This document shows, piece by piece, positions 12,311-30,724 of a stretch of 64,000 bases of DNA (the stretch's first letter is position 1; each line of letters begins with the position of its first letter). The DNA is from Imperialibacter sp. EC-SDR9 (GTDB lineage: Bacteria > Bacteroidota > Bacteroidia > Cytophagales > Cyclobacteriaceae). The stretch is taken from NCBI RefSeq assembly GCF_902498805.1, contig NZ_LR701637.1, positions 186,001 through 250,000 on the forward strand. Reading direction: 5' to 3'. Under the pieces are notes generated by a model. That model ran no database searches. It worked only from the letters and a program-made list of their open reading frames with translations, and was not told the DNA's origin. Position numbers and translations under genes: made by a program.

Positions 12311-12417
12311 AGGATTCAGTACTAGAGATTACAAGAAAAAAGGTCGACTTGGACGTTCAACACAACTCAATAGATTTGAAGATGTTCATTTTGCACTATT
12401 TTATTTCATCAAAAAAA

Positions 12418-13242: not shown

Positions 13243-13247
13243 TTGGT

Positions 13248-15518
13248 ATGTCAACTCTAAACAAGAAAAACTATCTTAAGTACCTTGGCAGGAGTAAAGA
13301 TAAAGATACAATTGATATACATTCCTATTTATTGCGTTTGTGGGACTATAAAATTTGGTTTTTCCTTTCTCTGATTTCATTCTCCTTTTTTGCTCTTGTT
13401 ATAAATGAGTATTCTACGCCTCGATATTTAGTCAAGGCTAGTTTGGATATTGTCGATCAGAAGAAGAGTGCATCCCAAACATTTATGAAGGAACTTGAGT
13501 TCTTTAGCCCTACTACCAATATCGAAAATGAAATAGAAGTTCTTGGCTCCTATGACTTAATCAAAAAAGTTACGGAATCTCTAAACCTCAATATTGATTT
13601 AGAAGAAGTAAGCCCGATGTCTGAAGCCTCTGAAGATGTGGATTTTTTTACTTGCAGACTTATTGAAACAAATGGTGATGGGCACCTCAAAACATTCCTA
13701 TTTAAGATAGTGGATGAAAATGGAGGGTACATTTCTTCGCAAGGGAACGGGAACTTGGGCGTTGATAGCCTAAGAATTGTCTTAGGTGTGCCAATTCAGT
13801 TTCACGGGTTCATTGTTCAAATTGAAAAAAAAGAAGACATAGAATTATCGCATTTGGGAAGGACATTCAAAATTAACTATTCTCATCCGGGGCAGCATGC
13901 GCTAGTTTTAAAAGAGAGGATTCAAATTAAACCAGTCAGTAATAAGACGAGCATTGTTGAATTGAGCCTTAGTTCCACTAAGCCCGAACTGGATATCGAA
14001 ATTTTGGATGAGCTCATGTCTTCTTACTTGAGCAGGGAATTAGAGTTGAAAAACAAATCGGCCAATGAAGCAATAGATTTCATTGACAATCAATTAAAAA
14101 GCGTTAGAGAGAACCTTTTGATTGCGGAGGCAAAACTGGAGGATTTTAGGTCAGAGAACAAAATCATAAATATCAACCAAGAGGGAATCACAACATTGAA
14201 CAAACTGCACGAACTTGAAAAGGACTACGCCCGATATCAAGTGCAACTTATGTATTGTTCATACACTCTTGACTACCTTAGTAAGACTGATGCGGGTATT
14301 TTAATAAGTCCTTCGACGGCCGGAATTACAGATCCAGTTTTAAATGATTTGGTTTCCAGCCTAAATAATTTAATTAACCAATACTCAAAGTTGCGGACGG
14401 CCGTTTCAGAAATCAATCCGCAACTACTGTCTCTGGCATCACAAATTGCAGTTAAGTTGCGAGCAGTAACAGAAAATATTCGTAATCAACGTAACACCTT
14501 AGAAATACAAATTGGCAGCATTGAAAAACTCATTAAAGAGGTTGAGTTGAATTTAGATAGAGTACCCAATGATGAAAGAACGCTAATTAATATTCAGAGG
14601 GAATTTGACTTAAATGAGGAGGTCTATATTTATTTGCTGAAGCAGAAGTCTGAAGCAGAAATCGCTAAGGAAGGCAACGAAACTTCTTCGAGATTAGTCG
14701 ATCCAGCATATGTTTCCAGCCGAATTTACCCAAGGAGCAACTTTAATGTTTCCGTTGCTATAATTTTTGGTTTTTTCATGCCGATACTGGGAATAGGGTT
14801 TTACGACTTTTTTCGAACAACCATTCACTCGCCACTTGATATTACGAGAGGAACAGATATTCCTATTATTGGGTGTCTACCAGCTGTATCACTGAACAAA
14901 GCAAAGTTTCCGAACTTACAATTTGAACAAATTTCTGAAGACTTGAAGGACTTCTGGGTTAGCATGAGCTTTTTACTGCCGTCCAAGGAATACCCAAAGA
15001 CCATTTTATATCTATCCTATTTACAAGGCGAAGGGAAATCTTTTTCCTCGTTAAATACGGCTATTCTGGCTGCAAACTCTGGTTATTCTACTTTGATAGT
15101 CGATTTAGACAATCGAAAGAAAAATTTATCCTCACTTTTTGGCTACACAGGTTTTGAAGGAATGGAAGAGTTTTTTATCGAGAATATGAATTTGGATAAA
15201 CTTGCAAGAAAAACTGACATTGGGGGCCTTGAAATTATTCAACTTGGCGCAGCTAAGGATTATTCCACTATTCTGATGAATAAGCCTAAACTTGAGATGC
15301 TTTTGGAAAGGTTAAAAAAGAAGTATGACTGCGTTGTTTTCGATAGCACATCCTTAGAGTTGACGCCGGACGCACTAACGCTGAGCACTTTTGTGGATTT
15401 TTCGGTATTTGTCGTCTCGCATAAAAAAACACAGCTTCGAACAGTGGAGATTTTGAATCAATTAAAGACGAAAATTATCAGTTCGGAAATAGGAATTCTA
15501 TACAACAATCTGAATTAG
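13248..15518 (+). CDS. Wzc-like polysaccharide co-polymerase with degenerate tyrosine-kinase domain
   Basis: A 756-residue inner-membrane protein. Residues about 32-55 (IWFFLSLISFSFFALVI) and about 500-522 (VSVAIIFGFFMPILGIGFY) are the two membrane helices framing a Wzz domain with a long coiled-coil middle part and a GNVR-like region. The cytoplasmic part has a P-loop QGEGKSFSSLN, Walker A' LIVDLDNRK and Walker B CVVFDSTS. In BY-kinases a Gly normally opens the P-loop, and a cluster of tyrosines ends the protein; here the P-loop is preceded by SYL and the last 20 residues hold one Tyr. It probably controls chain length and the Wza channel with reduced or no autophosphorylation. Confidence 0.88.
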   Translation: MSTLNKKNYLKYLGRSKDKDTIDIHSYLLRLWDYKIWFFLSLISFSFFALVINEYSTPRYLVKASLDIVDQKKSASQTFMKELEFFSPTTNIENEIEVLGSYDLIKKVTESLNLNIDLEEVSPMSEASEDVDFFTCRLIETNGDGHLKTFLFKIVDENGGYISSQGNGNLGVDSLRIVLGVPIQFHGFIVQIEKKEDIELSHLGRTFKINYSHPGQHALVLKERIQIKPVSNKTSIVELSLSSTKPELDIEILDELMSSYLSRELELKNKSANEAIDFIDNQLKSVRENLLIAEAKLEDFRSENKIININQEGITTLNKLHELEKDYARYQVQLMYCSYTLDYLSKTDAGILISPSTAGITDPVLNDLVSSLNNLINQYSKLRTAVSEINPQLLSLASQIAVKLRAVTENIRNQRNTLEIQIGSIEKLIKEVELNLDRVPNDERTLINIQREFDLNEEVYIYLLKQKSEAEIAKEGNETSSRLVDPAYVSSRIYPRSNFNVSVAIIFGFFMPILGIGFYDFFRTTIHSPLDITRGTDIPIIGCLPAVSLNKAKFPNLQFEQISEDLKDFWVSMSFLLPSKEYPKTILYLSYLQGEGKSFSSLNTAILAANSGYSTLIVDLDNRKKNLSSLFGYTGFEGMEEFFIENMNLDKLARKTDIGGLEIIQLGAAKDYSTILMNKPKLEMLLERLKKKYDCVVFDSTSLELTPDALTLSTFVDFSVFVVSHKKTQLRTVEILNQLKTKIISSEIGILYNNLN

Positions 15519-15603: not shown

Positions 15604-16512
15604 ATGGAAAGTGAACAACCCATTCTGATTTTAGGTTTTGGCAGGTCAGGTACCACCTGGATGTCAGATATTATTTCAAAATCTCTTGGTGGGTTGATAC
15701 TCTTTGAACCGATGCATCCCGAGGTTTTATCATTTGCGAAACACGCCTGCTATTCTAGCGGGTTAAATGATGAAATGAATAACCAATTATCGAAACACCT
15801 TAAAAGTTGTCTCTGCAAAGAAGTCGATAACCGTTGGCTAATTCGAAATCATTTATCCGCTAATTTACAGGAGGTGAATGAAAAATATGTGGAAATGATT
15901 TGGCGAGAATCTGATATTATTGGAATGAAATTGATTAGAGGGAACTTTATGATTCCCTGGCTATATCAGAATGTTTCGAAAAGGATCATATACTTAGAAC
16001 GAGAAGTTAAGTCCGTTGTTGCCTCTATTCTTAAAAGGCCGCAGTTTTGGATGGAGTTTGGCTTTGATTTCCACTACCATAAATTTACTGCCGAAGTTAT
16101 CAACGGTAAGTATCGCTTTTTATGGAATGAAAAGGAAATGAAAAGTCTGTTAGAAGGATTGGAATTCGAATTTGAAAAGATCACTGTGATGTGGGCTTTA
16201 ACGAGCATAGTTGCAAACTATGAGTTAGGCAAACTGGGTATTCCGGTTTATAGCTACGAAAAACTTTATAAAGATCCGTATAAAGTTACCAGAGAAATAC
16301 TAACTAATCTTTCAGGTCGAAATGTGGCAATACACCCCTCCTATATTTTCACCCCTTCGATGCTGACACACAAGACGAGCCATGACCTTAGAATAGAAGA
16401 TAGTTTTTTCCACGAAGCAGATGTGTCGGTATTTTGGAGAGAAAGGATAACTAATGCTCAATCAACTAGAATAGATTATATTATGAACAGAATTGGCCGA
16501 GCGGCCGTTTGA
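15604..16512 (+). CDS. Sulfotransferase (1 of 5 in the locus)
   Basis: A 302-residue protein with the 5'-phosphosulfate loop GFGRSGTTWMSD at residues 11-22, the hallmark of PAPS-dependent sulfotransferases. A second segment, IIYLEREVKSVVASIL (about residues 135-150), carries the Arg and Ser of the 3'-phosphate binding site. It begins 85 bases after the Wzc-like gene in a short AT-rich spacer. The family transfers sulfate from PAPS to a hydroxyl or amine; given its neighbours the acceptor is probably a sugar of the exported glycan. No PAPS-generating genes are in the window. Confidence 0.82.
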   Translation: MESEQPILILGFGRSGTTWMSDIISKSLGGLILFEPMHPEVLSFAKHACYSSGLNDEMNNQLSKHLKSCLCKEVDNRWLIRNHLSANLQEVNEKYVEMIWRESDIIGMKLIRGNFMIPWLYQNVSKRIIYLEREVKSVVASILKRPQFWMEFGFDFHYHKFTAEVINGKYRFLWNEKEMKSLLEGLEFEFEKITVMWALTSIVANYELGKLGIPVYSYEKLYKDPYKVTREILTNLSGRNVAIHPSYIFTPSMLTHKTSHDLRIEDSFFHEADVSVFWRERITNAQSTRIDYIMNRIGRAAV

Positions 16513-16535
16513 ATTAAACCCTACCTTTTTCAGCG

Positions 16536-17657
16536 ATGAGGCAACCTCCCGTCAACCTGGTTTTTTTAGGCACGAAAACATTTAAGGCAAATAATATTAC
16601 GTTTCTTGAAAATTTTATTCAGCTTCTACAGGAACGAGTTGCTGTATCGCTGATTATTGGCTCCTCCGTCGATCGATCATTAATTAATTCGAGCTGTGAG
16701 GTCTATGTATATAAGAAGAATTTTTTTTTCAATTTCAAAGGACTGGTCTTTGGCGCCTTTGCCCTAAAAAGTTTCCTTAAAACACACCGCAAGCCTGACG
16801 TGCTTGTTAATCTCTCCGATCCGTTTCCATCTGGAGTATTGGTTAACTTATTCAGTCTCTATTATGGCATTCCCTCTATAACACGTGTAACCGGAGATAT
16901 TCTTGGCGAAAAGGACAGGGCCTCTGGTGTTTTACGAAGGGCAGTGAAGTATGTCATCTACAATCTCCTTATTTTGTCCCTTTTTAAAACAACAAATAAG
17001 CTTGTCGTCTTAGGGCAGGATTCAAAAAATAAATTTGCAAGAATGGGGTTCAGCCAAGACAGACTGGTTGTTTTGCCTCAACCTTTTAAGGCGGATCTTT
17101 TTCCGCAATCATCTTTCAGAAAAAAGGGTGCGCTAAAAAAATCATTGGGCTTTAAACCGGAGCGCAAACTTATTTTGTACGTGGGAACCCTGTCATACGG
17201 AAAAGGAGCGGACCGGCTAATTGAAATAATAAAGCGTGTTACCTTGCAAAGTGATGAATACCAGTTTTGTATCATTGGGCGTGGCCCTTATCAGGAAAAT
17301 TTTGAAGCTAATTCCGACGCCAGGATCAGGTATGAGGGTTTTGTATCAAGGGAAAACATTTCAAATTACTACCAAGCCAGTGATCTATTTATTTATCCCA
17401 CTAGAAGTGATTCATTGCCTAATGTAATTATCGAGGCTATATCTAGCGGTTTACCCATTGCCGCCTCTCCTGTTGCTGAAATACCTTATTTGGTAATGAA
17501 TACGATGGATAGTGTTGATGAATTTGTGAAATATATATTGAATGGAAAATTTGTTCCCGAACAAAGGCCGGATTGGTTTAATTGGGTCAGGCAGCGAGAA
17601 ATGTATCTCGACCTACTAGATAGCGTTTCGAAGGGCAAGCAAGCCAAGATCGGATAG
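16536..17657 (+). CDS. Glycosyltransferase family 4
   Basis: A 373-residue GT-B protein. The C-terminal domain has LILYVGTLSYGKGADRLIEI, then FIYPTRSDSLPNVIIEAISS and GLPIAASPVAEIPYLV, the donor-binding face of GT4 enzymes. The N-terminal domain begins LVFLGTKTFKANNITFLENF. It sits between a sulfotransferase and the flippase gene, which starts four bases after its stop. Donor unknown. Confidence 0.85.
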   Translation: MRQPPVNLVFLGTKTFKANNITFLENFIQLLQERVAVSLIIGSSVDRSLINSSCEVYVYKKNFFFNFKGLVFGAFALKSFLKTHRKPDVLVNLSDPFPSGVLVNLFSLYYGIPSITRVTGDILGEKDRASGVLRRAVKYVIYNLLILSLFKTTNKLVVLGQDSKNKFARMGFSQDRLVVLPQPFKADLFPQSSFRKKGALKKSLGFKPERKLILYVGTLSYGKGADRLIEIIKRVTLQSDEYQFCIIGRGPYQENFEANSDARIRYEGFVSRENISNYYQASDLFIYPTRSDSLPNVIIEAISSGLPIAASPVAEIPYLVMNTMDSVDEFVKYILNGKFVPEQRPDWFNWVRQREMYLDLLDSVSKGKQAKIG

Positions 17658-17660
17658 ACG

Positions 17661-19004
17661 ATGAGAATGGACCCTTTGAAGAGGATTAGTCAATCAAATA
17701 TTTTTAGAAAGCTCACCGGTGTGACACTTGTGCAAGTGGCGGGGGCATTCCTGGGCTTATTGAGTCAAACCGTTCTGGCAAGAATATTGGGTGTCAGTGA
17801 TTTTGGGTTGATTACTTATATTTTTTCATGGATAGTTTTGATTTCTTTATTTGCTCGTCTTGGTTTTGACAACTCTTTGATAGTTAAAATTTCGAATACG
17901 ATTGAAAGCCGCAAGTGGTCATTGCTTGGCTGGTATTTGTCCATTCCGCCGCTATTTATTATGGCGTCAAGTTTACTGATCGGTTCTTTGGTGCTATTAT
18001 TTCTCTATATATTCCAGATACCTAATTTTTCTGTATGGGCAATTTCTTTGTTAGTCTTGCTGCCAATCATTTCCTATTCAAATTTGAACCAAAGCATATT
18101 AATTGCCTTTAAAAAGACAATTATTTCTAACATTCCAGTTTTAATAATTAGGCATTTCGTTCTTATTTTAGTGATGATTCTTACGGTCGTTATCAACGAT
18201 GCCTTGATAAGCCCGTTTTATGCTCAAGTTGCGAATGCTTTTGCATTCTTTACTGGGGCATTGGTTTCTGGTTACTGGATTAACAAGGAAAAAGCAACTT
18301 TAGAGTTACACTTGCACAAAAGTGAAAAAGCTAACCCATTTAGACTCGTTGCAGAATCGTTTCCTTTTTTGATCTTTAGCGGCACAAGTATCTTAAACCA
18401 GCACGCAGATGTATTAATCCTGGGGGTTTTTAGGGCACCTGAAGAGGTAGGAATTTATGGTGCAGTGTCCAAGGTTATTATGCTAATCTCCTTTTCATCC
18501 ATAGTCGCAAACATAACAATTAAGCCATATATAACTCGGTCAAGAAAGCAGGATGGCAATAAAGAGCTAGAGAGACAGCTTTTTTTTCTCAATTTATTTG
18601 TGAGTGCCTCGTCGTTTGTTCTTTTCCTGCTAATTGTTGTTTTCGGGGAAAGGTTGCTAGGGATATTTGGAAATGACTTTATCCCTGGATACAACGTTTT
18701 ATTGATACTCTCATTTGGGAAACTTTTCGCTGTGAGCACAGGGCCTGTTGGAATTCTTTTAATGCTTTCAGGTAGCGATAAAATAGGGTCTCGTCTGGAG
18801 CTTCTGTTTGCAATGGTCAACATTGTCTTAAATTTTGCGCTGATTCCGTTTTATGGAATAACTGGTGCGGCTATTGCCACAGTGATATCATGGATCATGA
18901 GGAATTTGGTGATGTTGATTATTGTGAGAAAGAAACTGAAGATCAACCCAACTGTATTTAACTATACACAGATAAAAGGTCTAGTAAATGGATTTAAAAA
19001 ATAA
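17661..19004 (+). CDS. Wzx-type polysaccharide flippase
   Basis: A 447-residue polytopic protein of the MOP/MATE superfamily. About twelve to fourteen hydrophobic segments are visible. The N-terminal pattern GVTLVQVAGAFLGLLSQTVL then ARILGVSDFGLITYIFS is typical of PST/Wzx flippases, as is the internal repeat beginning SFPFLIFSGTSILNQHADVL (about residue 235). It would move the lipid-linked repeat unit across the inner membrane. The next gene starts inside its last codons (17-base overlap). Confidence 0.88.
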   Translation: MRMDPLKRISQSNIFRKLTGVTLVQVAGAFLGLLSQTVLARILGVSDFGLITYIFSWIVLISLFARLGFDNSLIVKISNTIESRKWSLLGWYLSIPPLFIMASSLLIGSLVLLFLYIFQIPNFSVWAISLLVLLPIISYSNLNQSILIAFKKTIISNIPVLIIRHFVLILVMILTVVINDALISPFYAQVANAFAFFTGALVSGYWINKEKATLELHLHKSEKANPFRLVAESFPFLIFSGTSILNQHADVLILGVFRAPEEVGIYGAVSKVIMLISFSSIVANITIKPYITRSRKQDGNKELERQLFFLNLFVSASSFVLFLLIVVFGERLLGIFGNDFIPGYNVLLILSFGKLFAVSTGPVGILLMLSGSDKIGSRLELLFAMVNIVLNFALIPFYGITGAAIATVISWIMRNLVMLIIVRKKLKINPTVFNYTQIKGLVNGFKK

Positions 19005-19872
19005 GCAAAAGGTTTTCCTTATTGGTGCCCCAAAATCTGGAACTACCTCATTGCACCACCTTATTAATTATCATCCAAACATTTGCCTCTCGAAGTATAA
19101 AGAGACCAGATTCTTTCTGGATGACGAATTGTTTTCGGAAGGAGTTAATTTCTTTTACAACAAGTATTTTGATAAGTCTGCGTTGAGCGAGAAAATTCAA
19201 TATATCGGTGAATCAACACCTGCATACTTGGGAAACGCCCACATCGTAGCTAAAAGGATTCAAGAAACCTTCAAAAATGATGATTTAAAGTTTATTGTCA
19301 TCTTGAGAAATCCAACCGACAGGGCTTGGTCCAATTACCTTCACAGGAAAGTTAATCTTGTAGAGTTGAAGTCATTTCGTGAGGCTGTTGATGAAGATAT
19401 CAATGGTTTAAGAGATGGTAAACCCATTTTCCATAGGTATTTTTCTTGTGGCTTGTATTCCATTCAACTTAAGGCATGGTTCAAATGTTTTAGCCCTTCA
19501 AAGTTCCTTATACTATTTTATGATGAACTAAAAGATGAGACAAAACTGCTTGAAAAAATTTTCGATTTCCTGAAAATCCCTCCAATAGGCCGACTGGAGT
19601 TCACAAAGAAACTAAATGTATCAAGCCAGCCAAGGTCACTATATTTATCATCCCTCGTCAGAAATAGTGGGCTAGGCAAATTATTTCGTAAAATCGTTCC
19701 TAAGCATAAGCAACATATGGTTAGGACTTTTGTAAGACAACTCATTAAAAAGAAAGCAAGGTTCAGGGAGGAGATGCCAAAAGAGTTGAGGGACTATATG
19801 GTTAGATTATACAAATCAGAAATTTTGAACCTTGAAGAACTGCTTTCCAGAGACTTATCTGAATGGAAATGA
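18988..19872 (+). CDS. Sulfotransferase (2 of 5)
   Basis: A 294-residue protein with the PAPS loop GAPKSGTTSLHHLI at residues 13-26, KETRFF in the next helix region, GESTPAY (about residue 75) and the 3'-phosphate segment FIVILRNPTDRAWSNYL (about 103-119). These are the features of heparan/NodH-like bacterial sulfotransferases (Sulfotransfer_1). It overlaps the flippase by 17 bases, so the two are likely translated together. Acceptor unknown; probably the polysaccharide. Confidence 0.88.
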   Translation: MDLKNKQKVFLIGAPKSGTTSLHHLINYHPNICLSKYKETRFFLDDELFSEGVNFFYNKYFDKSALSEKIQYIGESTPAYLGNAHIVAKRIQETFKNDDLKFIVILRNPTDRAWSNYLHRKVNLVELKSFREAVDEDINGLRDGKPIFHRYFSCGLYSIQLKAWFKCFSPSKFLILFYDELKDETKLLEKIFDFLKIPPIGRLEFTKKLNVSSQPRSLYLSSLVRNSGLGKLFRKIVPKHKQHMVRTFVRQLIKKKARFREEMPKELRDYMVRLYKSEILNLEELLSRDLSEWK

Positions 19873-20030
19873 TCACTTCTAAATCAAAACGGTGGATTTC
19901 ACAATTGCGTAAGCAGGATTGTCGGGAACGGCTACACTTTATGGCATGCATGGGCTTCACCTGGAAATTTAGAGCAAAAATATTTCTAATTTTAGGGCAT
20001 CCAGTTAAGCGCCTTTATCCTCAATACTGA
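19869..20030 (+). CDS. Small ORF or gene remnant coupled to the sulfotransferase
   Basis: A 53-codon ORF starts at the ATG overlapping the preceding stop (ATGA at 19869-19872), the arrangement seen at real junctions in this operon. It encodes a basic, aromatic-rich peptide (for example FTWKFRAKIFLILGH) and ends at TGA 20028-20030. The same frame then stays open for another 34 codons to a TGA at about 20133. This could be a real small protein, or the truncated 5' end of a lost gene with one in-frame stop. I recognise no family. Confidence 0.3.
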   Translation: MITSKSKRWISQLRKQDCRERLHFMACMGFTWKFRAKIFLILGHPVKRLYPQY

Positions 20031-20430
20031 CAAGAGGTTAAGTCAGGTTCGATTGGCTCACCGTTTGAGACCCTTTTGGAAATAATGACGAAAGGTTTCG
20101 AAGGTGCTTTGAAAATAGCTCCTACAAAATCTTGAGCGCTTCCTTCGAACTAAGAATTTCTTGTAATTAGAAAAGTTCTAATTTAGAGAGCAACATATCA
20201 AAGTCTCCGAAAAGCAAAAAGCCCAAACACGTTGTATTTTTTTTTGTGAAGTTCAAATGAATTGCAAATTTGTCATTACAACCTTCTTAAGAAGATTAAT
20301 ATACTTGGTTATAAATTTGAATCGAAAGGCGGCTAAATACGAGCACTATAGCCGCCAACATTCAAACTAGATTCAATTTATTGAAAGGATTAGAATTCGT
20401 GGAAACCTTATTAAAAATTAAAATTTCACA
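20031..20430 (+). other. 400-base non-coding stretch with three dyad symmetries
   Basis: This is the longest gene-free segment in the window. The first third keeps the frame of the preceding small ORF open to about 20133. After that there is AT-rich DNA with three inverted repeats: CTTCTTAAGAAG at 20283-20294; GGCGGCTA at 20328-20335 paired with TAGCCGCC at 20349-20356; and TTCAAT at 20372-20377 paired with ATTGAA at 20380-20385. None is followed by a T tract, so they look more like regulatory sites or mRNA hairpins than a terminator. An internal promoter for the second half of the locus is plausible but no convincing -7 box was found. Confidence 0.4.
20328..20356 (+). other. 8-bp inverted repeat upstream of second polymerase-like gene
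   Basis: GGCGGCTA and TAGCCGCC form a perfect 8-bp stem with a 13-base loop about 75 bases before the ATG at 20431. It is markedly GC-rich within AT-rich surroundings. There is no downstream T run, so an intrinsic terminator is unlikely; an operator or a 5'-UTR hairpin is possible. Confidence 0.45.
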
Positions 20431-21696
20431 ATGGGGGGAATTGGGTTAAAAGTTAGCAAAGGAGACTTACATCGTGCCATTATCTTTTTAGTTCCAATTT
20501 CTGAGGTTTTCAGAAAATTCTATATTGATGGGCCTATTCATATATCGCTTCCCATAGTTATAGATCTTTTTGCATTTCTTCTTTTTCTTTATTCATTGGC
20601 TAAAGGTGAGCAAATAAAAATATATGTTAAACTTGCTTTAATTGTGGCGTTCGTAGTATTGTCTACATCCATTTACCATTCATTGGTAAATATCAATACA
20701 GCGCATTCATCAAGCCTTACTTCTATATTTGGAGCCTATATTTTATTAGTTGCACTAACCTATATTTTATCAGCCGATGACCAAGGTGGCTATTTAGGTT
20801 TGTTGTCAAAATCTTTTATAATTTCTGGCATTTTGCTCGTGCTAATGCTAGTTATATTTGAAGCGTTCGATTTTCAAAAGGAATTTTTCGACAAAGAGTT
20901 AAAAGTGTCAGCAAGATCAAGATTAAATTCGGAGGGAATTACGTCCGATATTAGAAGGAGTTCAGGGCTTTCAGGGTTAGGTATGGGTGCTTTTGGCTCT
21001 TTTATGGAAGTGTCAATTTTTATGGTACTGTCATTGACCGTTAAAAACATCAAGTACAGAAATACTTTGTTATTCCTAAAGATTCTATTTTCGTTAATTT
21101 TGGTCTACGTAACATTCATTTTCCTTCAATCCAGAAGCTTTCTTTTGGCAGTTGCCGCTGGATTAATTGTATTCTATTTTTTAGACTTTTCTACTCGTAG
21201 TGATAGAAACAGACTCATTTTGTTGAGCGGCTTTCTTTTGATTTCTCTGATATCTTTGCTGGTAGCGCCGTATGTTTTTGACTGGATGGCCTCAATGGGG
21301 TCGGAAGCGCTTGGAAAAAGGCTTGATCTTTTACATTTAGGTTATATCACCGCAAGCAGGAATCCATTCTTTGGCAGTGGGTTCGATGCAGAGGTTTATT
21401 ATTACCACGCAGCTAGCATTGTTCATAACCATTATATGGCGTACATTATGAGCATTGGACTATTACCCTCTCTCCTCTATTTTTCTTTATATTTCTATGC
21501 GTTTATAAACGGGATAAAATATATTGCCGCACAGAGAAATGATAATAGGTTAATAGTCATTGGATTTTTAGCAGCACTCACAGCAATAGTAGTAGAAAAT
21601 AACCTTTATCAAGGGCTTACAACGCCGATCGTTTATATTGTCTTACCTGTCTTATTTACTCTGAGGAATAAAGAAAGTAGCAGTCTCGTAAGCTAA
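20431..21696 (+). CDS. O-antigen polymerase/ligase-like membrane protein (Wzy candidate 2)
   Basis: A 421-residue polytopic protein with about ten hydrophobic segments. The second half has SRSFLLAVAAGLIVFYFL, a large periplasmic loop with GSGFDAEVYYYHAASIVHNH, and then YMAYIMSIGLLPSLLYF. The Arg-rich loop start and the H-N-H in the loop are typical of the Wzy_C/O-antigen ligase superfamily. It differs clearly in sequence from the protein at 10323. It is preceded by the 400-base spacer, so it may be separately transcribed. Polymerase, ligase or chain-capping role cannot be distinguished. Confidence 0.75.
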   Translation: MGGIGLKVSKGDLHRAIIFLVPISEVFRKFYIDGPIHISLPIVIDLFAFLLFLYSLAKGEQIKIYVKLALIVAFVVLSTSIYHSLVNINTAHSSSLTSIFGAYILLVALTYILSADDQGGYLGLLSKSFIISGILLVLMLVIFEAFDFQKEFFDKELKVSARSRLNSEGITSDIRRSSGLSGLGMGAFGSFMEVSIFMVLSLTVKNIKYRNTLLFLKILFSLILVYVTFIFLQSRSFLLAVAAGLIVFYFLDFSTRSDRNRLILLSGFLLISLISLLVAPYVFDWMASMGSEALGKRLDLLHLGYITASRNPFFGSGFDAEVYYYHAASIVHNHYMAYIMSIGLLPSLLYFSLYFYAFINGIKYIAAQRNDNRLIVIGFLAALTAIVVENNLYQGLTTPIVYIVLPVLFTLRNKESSSLVS

Positions 21697-21910
21697 CCTG
21701 GAATTCGTCTGTTCAAAAGCTGAAAAGGTAATCACTTTTAATCGTATATATAAAAAAGTCACGGTTCTGAAAGACACAGATTACAAATTCCATCAGAGCT
21801 CACGAGGCTTGTCATCTTGTTATATAAAAATGGTGCAAGGTTCAGTTATAAATCTTAGTTACCTTTACTTTGCAAATGGGCTGTTTGAATGAGATGACAC
21901 CAACGCTTTC
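21697..21910 (+). other. 214-base AT-rich spacer, possible internal promoter
   Basis: No gene is seen here. Near the right end the sequence TTACCTTTACTTTGC lies about 35-50 bases before the ATG at 21911; it resembles but does not exactly match the Bacteroidota TAnnTTTG -7 box. A promoter for the sulfotransferase pair downstream is a guess. Confidence 0.25.
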
Positions 21911-22807
21911 ATGAATAGTATCAATTTAGATTTCCTCGTAATAGGAGTGCAAAAATCAGCCAGTTCGTGGTTGTATTATTGTTTAAAGGAACATCCCGAA
22001 TTAATATTACCTGCTTACAAGAAGGAGAGGGAATATATTGGCGGGCCTTTGTACAATGAGAAGGGTGGAATAAAATGGTACTACACCTTATTTGACATCG
22101 AAAACAAAAATAATAAGAAAGTCGGAGATGTGTCGGTAGAGTACTTTTTTGATAATACTTCCCCAATCGAAATCCAAAAAAATTTACCTCATTGTAATTT
22201 TATTCTTCTTTTAAGAAACCCGGTAGATCGGTTTAAATCAGCGTACTTTTGGTACCTAAGAAAAGGGCTGATTGACCGGGACGTTGACATCAATGCTCAA
22301 ATTATAAAAGCTATTGATCAGAATCGATCTAACGAAATTGAGCCAATCGTTTTAGACCTTTTGTCTCGGGGATACTATGAAGAGCAACTAGATTGCTTTT
22401 TGGCAGAATTTAAACCAGGGCAATTCTATGTTGCTTTCTACGAAGAAATTGAGGCAGATTCACAAAAAGTATTAGCTGATATTTATTCATTTCTTAACGT
22501 TAAATCTGACTTTGTTCCAACATCCATAAACTCCAGACCAAAAAAAAATTCCTACAATTCTTTTCTAATACACGCCGAAAGACTGGGAAGTAAAAATCGG
22601 GTCATTTCTAAATTTGCAAACTTTAGCAACCAGGTATTTGCAAACTTTTTTAACAAGAACTTAAAGCAAAACATTTTTGATCCAAAAGTAATGAGTTTGT
22701 TAAATGACCATTACAAGCAAAAAAACATTGGGCTCTCCAAAAAATTGAAAAGTTTAAGTAATGGAAAAAAGCATCTCAACAGTGTTAACATCTTTTGGAA
22801 ATGGTAA
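21911..22807 (+). CDS. Sulfotransferase (3 of 5)
   Basis: A 298-residue protein with the PAPS loop GVQKSASSWLYYCL at residues 12-25; most relatives have QKCGTT or PKSGTT here, so the Ala-Ser-Ser form is a variant. KEREYIGG follows, then VGDVSVEYFF (about residue 75) and FILLLRNPVDRFKSAYFWYL (about 97-116) for 3'-phosphate binding. The layout matches bacterial carbohydrate sulfotransferases. The C-terminal part is Lys/Asn-rich. It overlaps the next sulfotransferase gene by seven bases, so the two form a coupled pair. Confidence 0.85.
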   Translation: MNSINLDFLVIGVQKSASSWLYYCLKEHPELILPAYKKEREYIGGPLYNEKGGIKWYYTLFDIENKNNKKVGDVSVEYFFDNTSPIEIQKNLPHCNFILLLRNPVDRFKSAYFWYLRKGLIDRDVDINAQIIKAIDQNRSNEIEPIVLDLLSRGYYEEQLDCFLAEFKPGQFYVAFYEEIEADSQKVLADIYSFLNVKSDFVPTSINSRPKKNSYNSFLIHAERLGSKNRVISKFANFSNQVFANFFNKNLKQNIFDPKVMSLLNDHYKQKNIGLSKKLKSLSNGKKHLNSVNIFWKW

Positions 22808-23574
22808 CCTCCATTATAAACTTTTTTAAAAAAAGCGCTAAATACTCACAAGGTTTCCTTGGTTTAAATAAAAGAGACATCGTTCTGGTTTCATTCCCCA
22901 AATCCGGGAACACATGGGTTAGATTTGTAATAAATAATTACATCTCCCTGAGTGAACTCAATGGGAAAATCGTGACGTTTTCCTCTCTGGATCAAGTTAT
23001 GCCGGAGTTTGGAGTCAATGACCTTTTAAAACCATGGCCGTATAAGTCAATGCCAAGATTTGTGAAAACCCATTGGGCATGGAATCCCCTATTTGCCGGT
23101 AAAAAAAGCCTTCTCATAGTGAGAGACCCTCGGGATACCATGGTTTCTTACTATAATTACAGGAGCAAGCAGGTGTCGGCGGTGAACCCTGAGAGTTTCC
23201 AGACATTTATAAGAAGCAAAAAATTTGGTCTGGAAGCTTGGTTCAAACATTTAAAATCGTGGGAGAAAAAGGCAACTTGCGTTATCAGGTACGAAGACTT
23301 GAAGAGAGACGGATTAAAGGAAATTTCGGATTCTTTGCGGAAGTTAAGTCTTGATATCAACACTGAAATTTTATCAATGGCATTTGACAATGCCGCTTTT
23401 GATAAGTTAAAAACAAATGAGCAGATTCACGGAATGTCGAAAATGAACTTCTTTTCCGGGGGTCAAATGTTTTTCAATAAAGGGAAAACTAATCAATGGG
23501 TTGAATACTTTTCAGAAAAAGATTTAGAGTATTATCAAGAATTGAAAAGTAAGTATCGGCTAAATGCATACTAG
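22801..23574 (+). CDS. Sulfotransferase (4 of 5, cytosolic-type)
   Basis: A 257-residue protein from the ATG at 22801; an in-frame TTG two codons earlier is less likely. The loop SFPKSGNTWVRFVI (residues 31-44) is the classical 5'-PSB motif of aryl/alcohol-type sulfotransferases. THWAWNP (about residue 82) may hold the catalytic His. LLIVRDPRDTMVSYYNYRS (about 102-120) is the 3'-PB motif, and KGKTNQWVEYFSEKD near the C-terminus resembles the R/K-x-G-x-x-x-x-W-x-x-x-F region. It belongs to a different branch from the other four, so a different acceptor position is likely. Confidence 0.88.
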   Translation: MVTSIINFFKKSAKYSQGFLGLNKRDIVLVSFPKSGNTWVRFVINNYISLSELNGKIVTFSSLDQVMPEFGVNDLLKPWPYKSMPRFVKTHWAWNPLFAGKKSLLIVRDPRDTMVSYYNYRSKQVSAVNPESFQTFIRSKKFGLEAWFKHLKSWEKKATCVIRYEDLKRDGLKEISDSLRKLSLDINTEILSMAFDNAAFDKLKTNEQIHGMSKMNFFSGGQMFFNKGKTNQWVEYFSEKDLEYYQELKSKYRLNAY

Positions 23575-24703
23575 CAAAGCACAAAGGACGTCTGTATTAT
23601 TCTTCACTAATTTCCCTCCCCCCTACACTGGCCACACCGTGAATAACGAGTTGGTATTTGGGTGGCTTAACGATGCGCAAAAGAAAAAGATTAATATCTC
23701 GAATAGTAAGGGACGACTTCAGTCAACGGGATTGCTTCGAATAGGCGGTATTGTCTCTCACATCAAAAAATTGATTGGGCTGCGAAAGGAGCTCAATCGA
23801 AGGAGATATAATTGCCTATACATGACTTTCTCTCATTCAACGCTCGGTTTTTTAAAAAATTACTTGACTACATTGGCAGCCAGGGGAAAGGTCGATTTTA
23901 TTGTTGGGCACATCCATACAGGAAGCTACTCTTCTTTATTTCGAAAGAACTTGCTGAGACCCTTTACTTTGTCCTTTGTTACGGGTGTTGATCGCTTTAT
24001 TTTTTCGAGCGAGAGAATGTATGCAAAGTGTGCGTCTTATATCCAGTTAAACAAAAAGTTTGTTCTGGAGAATACGTTAAGCAAAGAACTGCTGGTCTCA
24101 AAAGAAGAAGTAGAGCTAAAGATTCGTAGTCGGAAAAAGGAAGACACTTTTCAACTGATCTATATTTCGAATATGATCCCCTCCAAAGGATATAAGGACC
24201 TGGCAAAAGCCCTCGTCTTGCTTTCGGGGAATTCGGCTATTGACTTCCATGCAACTTTTATCGGAGGTTGGATGGCGAGATCCGATGAATTGGAATTTTT
24301 GAGTTTTCTGTCCGAGAATAAACTTGAGAAATTCGTTACTGTGCTTGGTGCCATCTCCGACCGGCAAGCACTTCGGCGGGCACTTATGGAAGCCCATGTT
24401 TTTATATTGCCAACCTACTATCCCACAGAATGCCAGCCAGTCAGTATTATTGAAGCGATGAATGCGGGCAACGCTATTATTTCTACCTTTCATGCATCAA
24501 TTCCAGAGTACGTAAAAACGGATGTGAATGGCGTCTTGGTGGAAAAAATGTCACCGCTGCAAATACGTGATGCAATAGTCAGATTATACGATTTCCAGTA
24601 TTGGATCGAGTGCGCCACCGGTTCGAGGAGGGTATTTGAAGAGAAGTTTTATCCAGACGTTGTTAAATTGAAGTTCATGGATTTTTTGGAAACTTTGAAG
24701 TAG
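23564..24703 (+). CDS. Glycosyltransferase family 4
   Basis: A 379-residue GT-B protein. FFTNFPPPYTGHTVNNELV at the N-terminus is the glycine-poor acceptor loop seen in this subgroup. LIYISNMIPSKGYKDLAKAL (about residues 198-217) and VFILPTYYPTECQPVSIIEA then MNAGNAIISTFHASIPEYV (about 280-320) form the donor site. It overlaps the preceding sulfotransferase by 11 bases. Donor unknown. Confidence 0.85.
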   Translation: MHTSKAQRTSVLFFTNFPPPYTGHTVNNELVFGWLNDAQKKKINISNSKGRLQSTGLLRIGGIVSHIKKLIGLRKELNRRRYNCLYMTFSHSTLGFLKNYLTTLAARGKVDFIVGHIHTGSYSSLFRKNLLRPFTLSFVTGVDRFIFSSERMYAKCASYIQLNKKFVLENTLSKELLVSKEEVELKIRSRKKEDTFQLIYISNMIPSKGYKDLAKALVLLSGNSAIDFHATFIGGWMARSDELEFLSFLSENKLEKFVTVLGAISDRQALRRALMEAHVFILPTYYPTECQPVSIIEAMNAGNAIISTFHASIPEYVKTDVNGVLVEKMSPLQIRDAIVRLYDFQYWIECATGSRRVFEEKFYPDVVKLKFMDFLETLK

Positions 24704-24740
24704 GAACGTATTCCCTTCATCAATTAAAAACAGGCACGAA

Positions 24741-25901
24741 TTGATCAAACTTTATAACACCTTCGAAATAGCGATTCCTCTTTGGGATTGGATAATTGAG
24801 AAATTTGAATCTCAGGGTTTAAAAACGTCGGCAGTAATAAGCAAAGGGATTTATAGAGCTAAACCAAGTAATATTAGTCAACACATTCAATATGTTTGGA
24901 CGATTCCATTTCTGAGGAAATATAAGTTAGTCTCCCATTTAACTTACTTCTTGCTGACACCCATCAAAATTTTATGGAGCAGGCCTAAAGTCAATATTTT
25001 TTACACGCAACCCCCTCTATTTTACATTTTGGGGGCTTTTTGTTCAAGATTGGTCAGAATTCCCTATGTTGTTCACATAATGGACTTTCAACCTGAATTG
25101 CTGGTGGTCATGGGAAAGCTTAGACGCACGGGGCCGGTTTATAAGCTGCTTAATTTTCTTGGCCTAAGAGCACTTAAGAAAGCTGAAGAGGTAATCGTAA
25201 TTGGTCGGTGTATGCAAAGCCTATTAGTCAGGAAGGGTGTGAATGAGAAAAGAATCCAACTGATTCACAACGTTTCAACCTACAGCCCCGATAGAGTAGT
25301 AAATACTGGCATTAAGTCTGACATTGGGCTGGAGGGAAAATCGATAATACTCTATTCGGGCAACATGGGTGTGGCCCATGAGTTCGAGACAATTCTTGGT
25401 GTTTCGAAAAGACTAGCGAGGCTGTCGAGCCTTCATTTTTTGTTTGTTGGAAAAGGCGCACACAGAAGTCTAATAGAAAACTTTATTGCTGACCAGTCTC
25501 CTGTTAACGTTTCGTTGATCGACTACCTACCTGACGACAAGTTTCAAGAAGTTTCCCAGGAGTCTTTAGCGCACTTTATTTCTTTAAAAAGTGGCTATGA
25601 GGGCCTGATGGTACCAAGTAAGTTCTATAGTTCCATTGCAGCTGGCAAGCCAGTAATTTATGAAGGAGGCAACAGTTCTGAGATTGCACTATTGATTGCA
25701 GAACATGGGTTGGGAAAAAGCGTTCTGAACGGCGATATTGATGAAATGGAGCGCTATATAGTGTCGCTTGTAGAAGACCCAGGATTAGTAAGGCAGATAT
25801 CAAAAAATTGTCGGGCTACGCACGATGGCAACTTTAGACCATCAATTATAACACAGAATTATTTACAATGTATAGATGAAGTTATCAAAAGAAGGGAGTA
25901 A
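24741..25901 (+). CDS. Glycosyltransferase family 4 (WbuB-like)
   Basis: A 386-residue GT-B protein with an N-terminal membrane-associated region: FYTQPPLFYILGAFCSRLV and YVVHIMDFQPELLVVMG (about residues 90-125) match the WbuB/FucNAc-transferase-like branch. The donor side has IILYSGNMGVAHEFETIL (about 204-221) and SLKSGYEGLMVPSKFYS then SIAAGKPVIYEGG. The start is TTG at 24741; no ATG lies close by. WbuB-type enzymes use amino-sugar donors, which would fit the dehydratase and aminotransferase at the end of the locus. Confidence 0.83.
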   Translation: MIKLYNTFEIAIPLWDWIIEKFESQGLKTSAVISKGIYRAKPSNISQHIQYVWTIPFLRKYKLVSHLTYFLLTPIKILWSRPKVNIFYTQPPLFYILGAFCSRLVRIPYVVHIMDFQPELLVVMGKLRRTGPVYKLLNFLGLRALKKAEEVIVIGRCMQSLLVRKGVNEKRIQLIHNVSTYSPDRVVNTGIKSDIGLEGKSIILYSGNMGVAHEFETILGVSKRLARLSSLHFLFVGKGAHRSLIENFIADQSPVNVSLIDYLPDDKFQEVSQESLAHFISLKSGYEGLMVPSKFYSSIAAGKPVIYEGGNSSEIALLIAEHGLGKSVLNGDIDEMERYIVSLVEDPGLVRQISKNCRATHDGNFRPSIITQNYLQCIDEVIKRRE

Positions 25902-26721
25902 TCTTGTTTTTCTTATCGGAGCAGCCCGCTCAGGAACAAAAATGTTGAGGGACGTGCTTGCCCAGCATCCAGGCATTAGTAAAGTCCCATACGACATAAA
26001 CTTTGTCTGGAGGTGGGGAAACGAGTCGTTAGAGCATGACGAATTAAGTCCTGCTAACTATTCTGCTAAGAATAAGCATCGGATACACGAATATTTGGAG
26101 AGATATGCCAAGAAAGGAGATTACTTGATTGAGAAGTCGGTTTCGAATACCATCAGAATCCCATTCCTGCAGAGGAATTACCCTGACGCAAAGTATATAT
26201 TTCTGTATCGAAACGGAATTGACGTCTGCGAGTCAGTAATCCGACAATGGAAGGCCCCTCTTGACAGCAAATACCTTCTCCAAAAGATGAGAAATATGCC
26301 TCCTTCTTTGTTAATTAACTACGGAATGAAGTTTTTGAAGAGAAATCTCATTAAAAGGAAAAATGATTTCTTTTGGGGAGTCAACTTCCCAGGAATGTCG
26401 AAAGATCTTCAATTTAAATCAATAGATCAAATAGTTGCGCAACAATGGACATATTGTGTTGGTAAAATGCTTGAAGCCCGGGAATCAATAGATTCCGGTC
26501 GGCTTATCGAAATTAAATATGAAGACCTTGTTTACAACTCTGAAGCTGTGCTCGAGCGTATCTTTAAATTTATAGACCCGCAATTCTCTATTATGCCAAC
26601 CGAAAAAGATTTGATAACAAGTGACCACGTGGGGAGGGGCAAATCCAATTTTCTCGAAGAACAGTTAATTGTAATTTTACCAATTGTTGAGTCGACGATG
26701 AAAAAAATTGACAGCTTATGA
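25876..26721 (+). CDS. Sulfotransferase (5 of 5)
   Basis: A 281-residue protein with the PAPS loop GAARSGTKMLRDVLAQH at residues 15-31 and the 3'-phosphate segment YIFLYRNGIDVCESVIRQW (about 111-129). The spacing between the two motifs fits the Sulfotransfer_3-like group of bacterial proteins. It begins within the final codons of the GT4 gene (26-base overlap), and its stop overlaps the aminotransferase start (ATGATGA). Acceptor unknown. Confidence 0.83.
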   Translation: MKLSKEGSNLVFLIGAARSGTKMLRDVLAQHPGISKVPYDINFVWRWGNESLEHDELSPANYSAKNKHRIHEYLERYAKKGDYLIEKSVSNTIRIPFLQRNYPDAKYIFLYRNGIDVCESVIRQWKAPLDSKYLLQKMRNMPPSLLINYGMKFLKRNLIKRKNDFFWGVNFPGMSKDLQFKSIDQIVAQQWTYCVGKMLEARESIDSGRLIEIKYEDLVYNSEAVLERIFKFIDPQFSIMPTEKDLITSDHVGRGKSNFLEEQLIVILPIVESTMKKIDSL

Positions 26722-27932
26722 TGAATATTCCCTTTTCGCCACCATTTATTGATGAAGACACAATAACTGAAGTAACTGATACGCTAAGATCAGGTTGGAT
26801 AACTACTGGCCCCAAAGTAAAGGAGTTAGAAGATCTCATCGCAAAGTTCAATCAGTGTGATTCTGCTGTAGCTGTCAATTCAGCAACTTCAGCGCTAATG
26901 CTGGCCCTTCATTGGTTCGGAGTGGGAAGAGGTGATGAAGTTATTATTCCTGCGTATACTTACTGTGCTACGGCTTTGGCTGTAAAGCATATTGGAGCGA
27001 CCCCCATCATGGTCGACGTTAAAAGTGACTTTACCCTCAATCCTGCGAAGATCAAAGCTGCCATCACAAACAAAACCAAGGCGATCATTCCTGTCGACAT
27101 AGCTGGCTGGCCATGTGATTACGAGCAGATATTCGAAATAGTTAGAAATGCTTCCTCCATACATTTTGACCCAGCATCAGCCCCACAAAAGAAGTTGGGT
27201 CGAGTTCTTATCTTAAGCGACTCAGCACACTCTCTTGGGGCAGTATACAAGGGAAAGCCTGTTGGAGCATTGCCCGATATCAGTGTTTTTTCATTTCATG
27301 CAGTAAAAAACATTACGACGGCTGAAGGGGGAGCATTGTGCTTAAATCTTCCACCACCATTTGACAACGGCGACGTCTATAAAACATTGAGGCTTTGGAG
27401 CCTTAATGGGCAAACAAAAGACGCATTTACTAAGTTGCAAGCGGGAGGGTGGAAGTACGACATTGTGTATCCTGGCTTCAAAATGAACATGCCAGACATA
27501 TGTGCAGCAATTGGAGTTGCTCAACTAAGAAAATATGCAAGTACTCTTCTACCTCGAAGAAGAAGCATAGCAAATATGTATCAGGAAGTCTTCTCCAAGC
27601 ATAGCTGGGCAATTCTTCCTCCCTTGAGACATGGAAGCACTGAGTCAAGTTATCACTTGTACCCAATTCGCATTAAGGGAGCAAATGAAGCTCAAAGAGA
27701 TTTAATTATTGAAGAGATGACACAAAGTGGCATTGGGGTGAACGTTCATTTTATACCGCTCCCTTTACTTACTATTTTTAAAGAACAGGCTTATGATATT
27801 TGTGAGTTTGAAGTGAGCTACAATCTCTACGCCAATGAGATATCACTCCCGATTTATCCTCAACTTCTTGATGAGCATATTGAGTATGTAACCAACTGTT
27901 TAGTTACTGCCGTTTCAAACGTTCTGCGCTGA
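26718..27932 (+). CDS. DegT/DnrJ/EryC1-type sugar aminotransferase (PglE/ArnB-like)
   Basis: A 404-residue PLP enzyme. IPFSPPFIDEDTITEV and SGWITTGPKVKELE open the fold as in ArnB/WecE/PglE. DSAHSLGA (about residues 173-180) and FSFHAVKNITTAEGG (about 198-212) hold the cofactor contacts, the Lys in AVKN forming the Schiff base. About 20 extra residues near 145-165 lengthen the protein relative to the usual 370-390. It converts a nucleotide 4-keto-6-deoxy sugar to the 4-amino sugar, probably using the product of the dehydratase at 28642. A second ATG at 26721 is equally possible as the start. Confidence 0.88.
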   Translation: MMNIPFSPPFIDEDTITEVTDTLRSGWITTGPKVKELEDLIAKFNQCDSAVAVNSATSALMLALHWFGVGRGDEVIIPAYTYCATALAVKHIGATPIMVDVKSDFTLNPAKIKAAITNKTKAIIPVDIAGWPCDYEQIFEIVRNASSIHFDPASAPQKKLGRVLILSDSAHSLGAVYKGKPVGALPDISVFSFHAVKNITTAEGGALCLNLPPPFDNGDVYKTLRLWSLNGQTKDAFTKLQAGGWKYDIVYPGFKMNMPDICAAIGVAQLRKYASTLLPRRRSIANMYQEVFSKHSWAILPPLRHGSTESSYHLYPIRIKGANEAQRDLIIEEMTQSGIGVNVHFIPLPLLTIFKEQAYDICEFEVSYNLYANEISLPIYPQLLDEHIEYVTNCLVTAVSNVLR

Positions 27933-27933
27933 A

Positions 27934-28563
27934 ATGATTAGGTTGCTAGATTTAACGATATCCATTTTGGGAATGATATTATTTCTTCCCGCTTTTTTAC
28001 TTTTTGCTGCGCTAATAGTTGCCGACTCTTCTGGATCGGTTTTTTACCTTCAGAAAAGAGTAGGTAGGGGGGGGCAGGAGTTTACTTTATATAAACTCAG
28101 AACTATGAGGAGTGGTGCTGACAAAAATGGTCTTTTGACGATTGGGGCAAATGACAGTAGGATAACAAAATTCGGGTTATTTTTGAGGAGATATAAAATA
28201 GATGAGGTTCCTCAATTGATCAATGTTTTCAAAGGGGATATGAGCCTCGTTGGGCCGAGACCGGAAGTTCGAAGATATGTTGAACATTACACAGAAGATC
28301 AGAAGAAGATTCTTCTCATCCGGCCAGGAGTTACCGATATGGCCTCAATATTCTATAAAGATGAAAATGACGTTTTAAGTCTGGCTTCTGATCCTGACTC
28401 GCTCTATATCAAAGAAATTTTACCACATAAAATCAGCCTCAATCAATTTTACATAGAGAACCCGTCAGTAAGAAATTATTTTTATATAATCTATCTAACA
28501 TTGAGGAAATTATTATCAAGATCAGGTGGAAAGGATACCAGCCAGGGGGCAACTATTCATTGA
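27934..28563 (+). CDS. Small-form phosphoglycosyl transferase (PglC-like), initiating enzyme
   Basis: A 209-residue monotopic phosphoglycosyl transferase. A re-entrant N-terminal hydrophobic helix (LTISILGMILFLPAFLLFAA) precedes VFYLQKRVGRGGQEFTLYKL and RTMRSGA. The catalytic Asp-Glu pair is in YKIDEVPQLINV, followed by KGDMSLVGPRPE. The length and absence of extra membrane helices match PglC rather than the long WbaP/WcaJ forms. It transfers a phospho-sugar to undecaprenyl phosphate and so starts the repeat unit. It begins two bases after the aminotransferase stop. Confidence 0.9.
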   Translation: MIRLLDLTISILGMILFLPAFLLFAALIVADSSGSVFYLQKRVGRGGQEFTLYKLRTMRSGADKNGLLTIGANDSRITKFGLFLRRYKIDEVPQLINVFKGDMSLVGPRPEVRRYVEHYTEDQKKILLIRPGVTDMASIFYKDENDVLSLASDPDSLYIKEILPHKISLNQFYIENPSVRNYFYIIYLTLRKLLSRSGGKDTSQGATIH

Positions 28564-28626
28564 CGCTTTTTTTTCAATTTAGCACTATTTACACCAGGCA
28601 GACTTTGGTAACAAAAGGCATCAGTG

Positions 28627-28634
28627 AAGGAGGT
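28627..28634 (+). promoter_or_regulatory. Strong Shine-Dalgarno sequence before a TTG start
   Basis: AAGGAGGT is a full anti-16S complement and ends seven bases before an in-frame TTG at 28642. Most genes in this window have no Shine-Dalgarno sequence, so this one helps decide the start. An in-frame GTG at 28624 would place the element inside the gene. Confidence 0.6.
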
Positions 28635-28641
28635 CAGACAT

Positions 28642-30621: not shown

Positions 30622-30682
30622 TAGTTCTTTGCTATTGTACACGCTATTGAGTGGGGTTTTCTTTTTCGTGTTGTTTTGCCAA

Positions 30683-30714: not shown

Positions 30715-30724
30715 TAAGTATATG
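30703..30724 (+). promoter_or_regulatory. Palindromic operator overlapping the -7 box and start codon
   Basis: CATATACTT (30703-30711) and AAGTATATG (30716-30724) are perfect inverted repeats of nine bases around a 4-base spacer. The dyad covers the -7 box and ends on the ATG of the PadR gene. PadR proteins are dimeric repressors that commonly bind such AT-rich dyads in their own promoters, so autorepression is the natural reading. Confidence 0.65.

Follow-up and report, generated by a model that had tools for sequence, protein, structure and literature searches.

Multiply sulfated polysaccharides are better known from animals and seaweeds, and Bacteroidota are familiar as degraders of algal sulfated glycans. 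Among bacterial systems, synechan (xss) of Synechocystis sp. PCC 6803 is described with two sulfotransferases and two sulfates per eight sugars (PMC8205485). A 2026 paper states that bacterial sulfated polysaccharides have been reported exclusively from cyanobacteria (PMC13390465), which is contradicted by the reports on Cobetia marina KMM 1449 (PMC11766843) and Vibrio sp. KMM 8419 (PMC11641403), where sulfated structures are given as established by nuclear magnetic resonance. For Pontiella sulfatireligans, a detected sulfated exopolymer and a putative gene cluster are described (PMC7356697). Here we analysed a stretch of 64,000 nucleotides (C2:186001-250000, contig NZ_LR701637.1; hereafter the window) from the genome of Imperialibacter sp. 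EC-SDR9 (6.80 Mb in 64 contigs), in which five genes for sulfotransferases dependent on 3'-phosphoadenosine 5'-phosphosulfate (PAPS) lie in one polysaccharide locus. These PAPS-dependent sulfotransferases (STs) are numbered ST1–ST5 by position (15604, 18988, 21911, 22795 and 25876); coordinates without contig prefix are window positions and those with the prefix C2 are contig positions. The cassette at 15604-28563 probably directs the synthesis and export, via the Wzx/Wzy route, of a capsule or exopolysaccharide that is multiply sulfated. The sequence-only reading had proposed such a surface polysaccharide, and at the gene level it is supported by gene order, cassette exchange and the co-occurrence of ST genes with cysC.

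The cassette comprises 12 genes on one strand (~13 kb) and lies between wza and wzc on the left and a gene for a CapD-type dehydratase on the right (Table 1). Eleven of the 13 junctions from wzc to the dehydratase gene are shorter than 90 bases; at five of these, adjacent genes overlap by 4 to 26 bases: wzx/ST2 (17 bases), ST3/ST4 (13), ST4/GT4b (11), GT4c/ST5 (26) and ST5/aminotransferase (4). Two long non-coding gaps of 558 and 214 bp lie on either side of wzy; the former, between ST2 and wzy (19873-20430), is without an open reading frame (ORF) of 100 residues and may be a gene remnant or a promoter site. The Wzx/Wzy pathway set is complete, with PF01943, PF04932, PF02706/PF13807, PF02563 and PF02397 each matched over the cut-off. 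Pfam also confirmed the flippase, the polymerase and the glycosyltransferases, three of family GT4, with which the ST genes had been said to interleave.

All five ST ORFs are present, full length and open, with the PAPS loops as originally read. The fourth gene was placed correctly except for its start, as its ORF opens at a TTG (22795) and the position first given, 22801, is an in-frame ATG. When the five proteins are aligned, one Ser in the PAPS loop is invariant, and so are the Arg and the Ser that had been claimed for the 3'-phosphate segment. All five have the residues described as defining STs (PMC11625862), a PAPS-loop Lys or Arg and a Ser on the 3'-phosphate helix. Loss of PAPS-site residues was looked for in alignments of all five proteins and in the one usable structure model, that of ST1, and none was seen. 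In the profile search against ST families, ST2, ST3 and ST4 exceeded the cut-off of PF00685 (22 bits) and ST5 that of PF13469 (27 bits), while ST1 fell just below. On sequence grounds, and for ST1 also on its modelled fold, the assignment of the five proteins as PAPS-dependent STs is confirmed. Non-ST P-loop proteins were rejected as an identity for the five by the Pfam scores and the VIA-align results for ST1, and recent duplication was rejected at identities of 16-27% between ST3 and the other four.

The model of ST1 was built on its alignment to 25 relatives from named genomes, out of 28 loci that had been found with a five-sequence set (A2) excluding ST1 itself. As a lone query, ST1 had no relative in genome contigs and none in plasmids, and phmmer against the PDB hit only a resistance enzyme, four times and at E 0.37-0.44, which we took as chance. 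Residues R14, G16, T18, W19, E35, R133 and S141 are invariant in 26 ST1-type sequences. With the AlphaFold2 model (predicted local distance difference test (pLDDT) 81.5, predicted template modelling score 0.82), VIA-align listed 50 rows, every one of them an ST or ST domain (Z 11.5-15.8), with human TPST1 first (Z 15.8, 219 residues, 3.5 A), and the nine Foldseek matches at E < 0.001 are all STs. According to this model ST1 has the ST fold, and because fold and residues fit we count it as an ST, though not as a member of PF00685 or PF13469.

Grouped by their nearest relatives in sequence among solved structures (for ST1, its own clade), the five STs form about four groups of similarity rather than of a tree, in keeping with the at least two or three branches proposed earlier. 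ST1 belongs with a clade carrying PRGG(S/T)TW. ST2 and ST3 group with 3rnl and with heparan-sulfate 3-O- and N-sulfotransferases: ST2 matches 3rnl (E 7.5e-24) and HS3ST1 (E 1.8e-12, where the KExxFF Glu is aligned), and ST3 matches the N-sulfotransferase domain of NDST (1nst, E 9.6e-12). ST4 is closest to the cytosolic SULTs, its match to SULT1C3 (E 2.7e-18) aligning KTH, RDPxDxxxSYY and the KG...W stretch. ST5, a member of PF13469, has weak matches to TPSTs and to polyketide-synthase sulfotransferases.

Seven STs were detected genome-wide, and since five of them sit in 11.1 kb of the 6.8-Mb genome (rough uniform-placement probability 8e-10), their clustering is not due to chance. The other two, at G000:C40:19210 (L020) and G000:C50:72291 (L021), lie by eye among glycosyltransferase-like genes, the latter also near Wzx-like and polymerase-like proteins. 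For the wider family, 60 genomes of 59 genera were searched with PF00685, PF13469, PF01583 and PF01507. Two ST1 relatives (L055, L059) match proteins of Reichenbachiella agariperforans DSM 26134 (L083) at every residue but the first, and the sampled family therefore includes this species, which NCBI places in Reichenbachiellaceae, Cytophagales. The matches listed comprise 137 PF00685 and 27 PF13469 places, and ST counts are lower bounds; one second match of the same ORF was dropped from the PF00685 places, one stop-containing and a few sub-cut-off places were kept, and 4 of the 27 PF13469 places are below the cut-off. ST genes occur in at least 42 of the 60 genomes of this one Bacteroidota family, in contrast to a microbial-mat study that reports no ST in its Bacteroidetes metagenome-assembled genomes (PMC9723792). 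The densest 12 kb holds five STs here, at least three in five of the 42 genomes, at least two in six and at least one in thirty. No second five-ST locus was found with home-made hidden Markov models in the 28 ST1-relative loci, where the most per stretch was at least three ST-like ORFs (stretches of up to 21 kb; counts are lower bounds, and the main match of L092 was missed). Literature searches, in which subscription papers were mostly not covered, likewise turned up no title or abstract on a bacterial polysaccharide locus with five STs, or on a locus of this sort in Cytophagales.

A related arrangement is seen in another genus (G007), where genes for Wza, Wzc, a weak Wzx match and a Wzy-like membrane protein (by eye) are followed by consecutive relatives of ST3 (36% identity), ST5 (29%) and ST4 (31%) and then a GT4. 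In a second genome of that genus (G132), an ST4 relative and a GT4 are neighbours, flanked by Wza/Wzc on one side and by PglC and CapD relatives on the other. The ST4 relatives of G012, G161 and G191 lack an adjoining GT4b-like gene, and because the pair was seen in G007 and G132 only, i.e. in one genus, a fixed ST4-GT4b pairing is not claimed. A further genome (G059) has at least four STs within 21 kb, with a cysC operon in the same region.

Within the genus, two genomes were compared, this one and a congener (G028). The 12 cassette genes are all without a true counterpart in the congener region, and the cassette DNA is absent from it; the match to the aminotransferase is a paralogue elsewhere (27.5% identity). 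The surroundings are shared: the PAPS operon is 95-100% identical, the right flank 86% (CapD-type dehydratase) and 98%, and, to the left of the cassette, the eight genes at 6791-15518 are 33-70% identical, including wza (41%) and wzc (33%). The congener's own genes at the cassette site include Wzx- and Wzy-like ones, by eye, and a single ST-like gene (PF00685 20.2 bits, 23.3 with its neighbours). In this one comparison, the pattern suggests that the whole cassette was swapped while its flanks were conserved, as happens when capsule types switch.

The genes for PAPS synthesis, which had been named as something to search for, are present in the genome. An operon of cysC, cysD, cysN and cysQ, all over NCBIfam cut-offs, lies at C2:146812-150380, where the same glycan region starts, 51 kb upstream of ST1; export genes follow directly, and then near-unbroken glycan genes up to the window (by eye). 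One cysC and one cysD were found in the genome, a second PF01583 match (21.8 bits, 42 positions of a 442-residue frame) being taken as unrelated to cysC. Five STs together with genes for activated sulfate make a multiply sulfated polysaccharide coat very probable.

Across the 60 genomes, among the matches listed, ST and cysC occur together in 40, ST only in 2, cysC only in 5 and neither in 13 (Fisher p 1.4e-7, with kinship ignored and CysH type as a confounder); cysC was counted in 45 genomes after exclusion of PF01583 matches weaker than E 1e-5. One genome scored as ST-less (G047) has an ST1 relative ~8 kb from cysC, and counting it changes the table to 41/2/4/13 (p 4e-8). An ST lies within 20 kb of cysC in 6 of the 40 genomes against 1.2 expected, again among the matches listed. 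A PF01507 match was seen within 1.5 kb of cysC in 42 of the 45 cysC genomes, from places that are part of a larger listing (75 rows; two CysH of G032 left out). At the 45 cysC loci, which span up to 10 kb on each side and in many cases end at contig edges, cysH was recognised in none, cysQ in 36 and the whole set in 34, and cysQ was recognised in none of ten cysC-less loci chosen for cysH next to cysD. BLAST recognition missed cysH in one and cysD in two of these ten, as well as cysC in L121. Second strong APS-kinase (APS, adenosine 5'-phosphosulfate) matches at G046:C69:10187-10645 and G058:C414:3810-4268 lie in 577- and 574-residue frames and are perhaps fused sulfate-activation enzymes.

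CysH comes in two types in the family, A (KxCCxxRK) and B (DxCCxxNK), which are 30-34% identical or slightly less; types were assigned by scores, with sequences checked for all 18 type A genomes. Type A is found both in the presence of cysC (seven cysC genomes) and in its absence (the ten cysC-less loci), as well as in G057, while type B occurs only in cysC genomes among those fetched. A third CysH form (37% type-B-like) was seen in G032, without cysC. In the type A genomes, ST and cysC occur together in five, cysC only in two, neither in 11 and ST only in none (p 0.0025; 6/1/11/0 and p 0.0004 with the ST-like gene of G047). All ST-bearing type A genomes thus have cysC, and PAPS supply therefore follows the STs there. 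The CysH of this genome (L022:8560-9216) is the other PF01507 protein and has a CC-X80-CXXC pattern, which we take to be that of iron-sulfur APS reductases. It is accepted by NF002537 (phosphoadenylyl-sulfate reductase; 222 bits, cut-off 154) and by TIGR00434 (cysH), and falls below the cut-offs of the specific NCBIfam APS and PAPS models. We had taken cysC to be reserved for sulfation on the basis of cysH beside cysD in 10 of 15 cysC-less genomes, and withdrew this for the present genome after the two CysH types emerged.

Several observations weigh against the cassette as the source of a multiply sulfated polysaccharide. The PAPS operon is 51 kb off and beside a different export set. The CysH of this genome is of type B, as it is in all 11 other cysC genomes from which a low-scoring CysH was fetched; for this reason, and because NF002537 accepts it, cysC may serve both sulfation and cysteine synthesis here. 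As type B tracks cysC, their association may also have another reason than sulfation. Two draft genomes (G032, G054) have an ST without cysC, three (G015, G029, G056) have cysC and type B CysH with no ST among the matches listed, and the excess of Wza/Wzc near cysC is not significant (11/45 vs 0/10, p 0.18). In the cassette itself, the Wzy assignment has a modest PF04932 score in a family that also includes ligases. ST1 is under both Pfam cut-offs (PF13469 24.6/27 bits, PF00685 19.1/22 bits), its Foldseek TM-scores are low (0.37-0.46), and from rank 11 on (E 1.6e-3) its Foldseek matches include P-loop kinases and tRNA-modifying enzymes. The predicted model of ST3 is unusable (pLDDT 51), and its loop (KSASS) has Ala in place of Gly.

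It is a serious possibility, compatible with the proposed sulfated polymer, that fewer than five STs are functional, with ST1 or ST3 decayed or altered and a polymer of two to four sulfates. The scores of ST1, the loop and poor model of ST3 and the two non-coding gaps around wzy point that way, as does the report that loss of the synechan ST gene xssE left bloom formation and the amount of extracellular polysaccharide substantially unaltered (PMC8205485). Set against this are the full-length ORFs with their retained Lys/Arg, Arg and Ser, the confident ST-fold model of ST1 and the ST3 relative in a Wza-Wzc locus of another genus. The multiply sulfated polymer in its fullest form is only a tentative proposal: a repeat of about four sugars would bear sulfate esters of five kinds, exceeding one per sugar, with heparin-like charge density, and would form a capsule type open to exchange, in a Bacteroidota family many of whose members have ST sets of their own and a PAPS operon.

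The STs might also be real with some or all of them acting elsewhere, on the glycan of the ABC-transporter unit ~25 kb upstream, on a glycolipid or on a protein O-glycan. This fits the several glycan units with separate export genes at C2:146.8-216.5 kb (by eye), the glycolipid enzymes NodH and Stf0 among known bacterial carbohydrate STs (PMC11625862) and a locus of Vibrio sp. KMM 8419 with two glycans, to both of which STs are assigned (PMC11641403). We nevertheless consider it unlikely, given that the ST genes overlap cassette genes, that both are missing from the congener region and that three ST relatives are consecutive in the Wza-Wzc locus of another genus. An unsulfated polymer with STs modifying small molecules, in SULT-like detoxification or signalling, is suggested by the nearest relatives of ST4 but is highly improbable, as all seven detected STs sit among glycan genes and ST1, ST2, ST3 and ST5 are not closest to SULTs.

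For the multiply sulfated polysaccharide, the following route can be proposed. The CapD-type dehydratase and the aminotransferase would make a UDP-4-amino-4,6-dideoxy sugar, which the PF02397 enzyme would transfer to undecaprenyl phosphate, and the three GT4 enzymes would add three sugars. The STs, one per sugar position, would then transfer sulfate from PAPS to the lipid-linked repeat in the cytoplasm, before the repeat is flipped by Wzx, polymerised by Wzy and exported by Wzc/Wza. PAPS would be supplied by CysD/CysN and CysC, and the by-product 3'-phosphoadenosine 5'-phosphate removed by CysQ. With three GT4s and the priming transferase, the repeat would have about four sugars for the five STs if the cassette enzymes alone build it. 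We infer this chemistry, the action of the STs on the cassette polymer, the number and positions of the sulfates and the acceptor from the gene set.

Table 1. Genes of the cassette and its flanks in the window
Feature	Position	Strand	Basis
Wza-type outer-membrane polysaccharide export protein (OPX)	12349..13242	+	PF02563 53.9 bits, cut-off 28
Wzc-type polysaccharide co-polymerase / tyrosine kinase	13248..15518	+	PF02706, PF13807 over cut-off
ST1 (GFGRSGTTW), divergent, PRGG(S/T)TW-clade relative	15604..16512	+	Pfam just below cut-off; ST-fold model
GT4 glycosyltransferase a	16536..17657	+	PF13692 80.6 bits
Wzx flippase	17661..19004	+	PF01943 67.5 bits, cut-off 28.2
ST2 (GAPKSGTTS)	18988..19872	+	PF00685 84.9 bits; 17-base overlap with wzx
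Wzy polymerase	20431..21696	+	PF04932 Wzy_C 35.6 bits, cut-off 31.7
ST3 (GVQKSASSW)	21911..22807	+	PF00685 45.2 bits
ST4 (SFPKSGNTW), SULT-like	22795..23574	+	PF00685 93.6 bits
GT4 glycosyltransferase b	23564..24703	+	PF00534 69.2 bits
GT4 glycosyltransferase c	24741..25901	+	PF13579 30.7 bits, cut-off 29.7
ST5 (GAARSGTKM)	25876..26721	+	PF13469 87.8 bits
DegT-family sugar aminotransferase (PseC/PglE-like)	26718..27932	+	PF01041 313.5 bits
Priming sugar-phosphate transferase (initiating enzyme)	27934..28563	+	PF02397 177.6 bits
CapD/PglF-type nucleotide-sugar dehydratase, conserved right flank	28624..30504	+	PF02719 388.7 bits

For Wzc, AAA_31 is just under its cut-off and the NCBIfam Wzc-type models are under their curated cut-offs; the aminotransferase scores 301 bits against the PseC model, under the cut-off of 423.5. 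Glycan genes are nearly continuous over ~70 kb (C2:146812-216504, window about -39188 to 30504), with three export sets by eye; the ATP-binding cassette (ABC) pair ~25 kb upstream of the cassette belongs, by eye, to a separate glycan unit. A nonulosonate-type unit with an ABC exporter was seen upstream, extending into window 1-479 (by eye). Between 2000 and 12310 there are eight more glycosyltransferase-like genes (by eye, two confirmed by Pfam). The six genes at 6791-12310, five of which resemble glycosyltransferases or a polymerase, share 49-70% identity with those of the congener and may contribute to the cassette polymer. Right after the cassette, at 30629-33711, a PadR-like regulator and an FtsX-type permease were noted by eye; the regulator is 98% identical in the congener and the permease lies outside the compared stretch.

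If the proposed polymer is real, Bacteroidota also make sulfated glycans besides degrading them, and five separable carbohydrate STs become available from the locus, along with a clear genetic test of the one-ST-per-position idea and candidate catalysts for tailored sulfated glycans. Synechan resembles the cassette in that its Wzx/Wzy cluster mixes glycosyltransferases with STs from distinct subfamilies, and its sulfated product was measured; it is described with two STs and eight glycosyltransferases on a plasmid of a cyanobacterium, with XssSRQ regulators (PMC8205485), as compared with five STs, three GT4s plus the priming enzyme and a PAPS operon in the same region of a Bacteroidota genome. 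Cobetia marina KMM 1449 (PMC11766843) and Vibrio sp. KMM 8419 (PMC11641403) are reported to have PAPS genes and STs in one capsule locus, which in the former also includes cysQ, and in the latter the capsule clusters are reported to differ among strains of one species. Their export is by ABC transporter and their STs are tied to one sulfated rhamnose in these reports, in contrast to the ST-bearing unit here, which has Wzx and Wzy. The wps-1 cluster of Actinoplanes missouriensis is, as described, also of the Wzx/Wzy kind with STs of different families and inferred sulfation, but has two STs, a Gram-positive host and a role in sporangium formation (PMC13390465). The glycosaminoglycan-like cluster of Pontiella sulfatireligans likewise has an ST among glycosyltransferases and a sugar aminotransferase, but is described with a single ST (PMC7356697). 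The sequence-only reading had called so many STs unusual for a bacterial capsule or O-antigen; this holds for their number but not for their kind, because multi-ST polysaccharide loci have precedent in the two STs each of synechan and wps-1. The sulfated-polysaccharide locus as a kind is thus already known, and five STs with three GT4s, in Bacteroidota, are a new variation of it.

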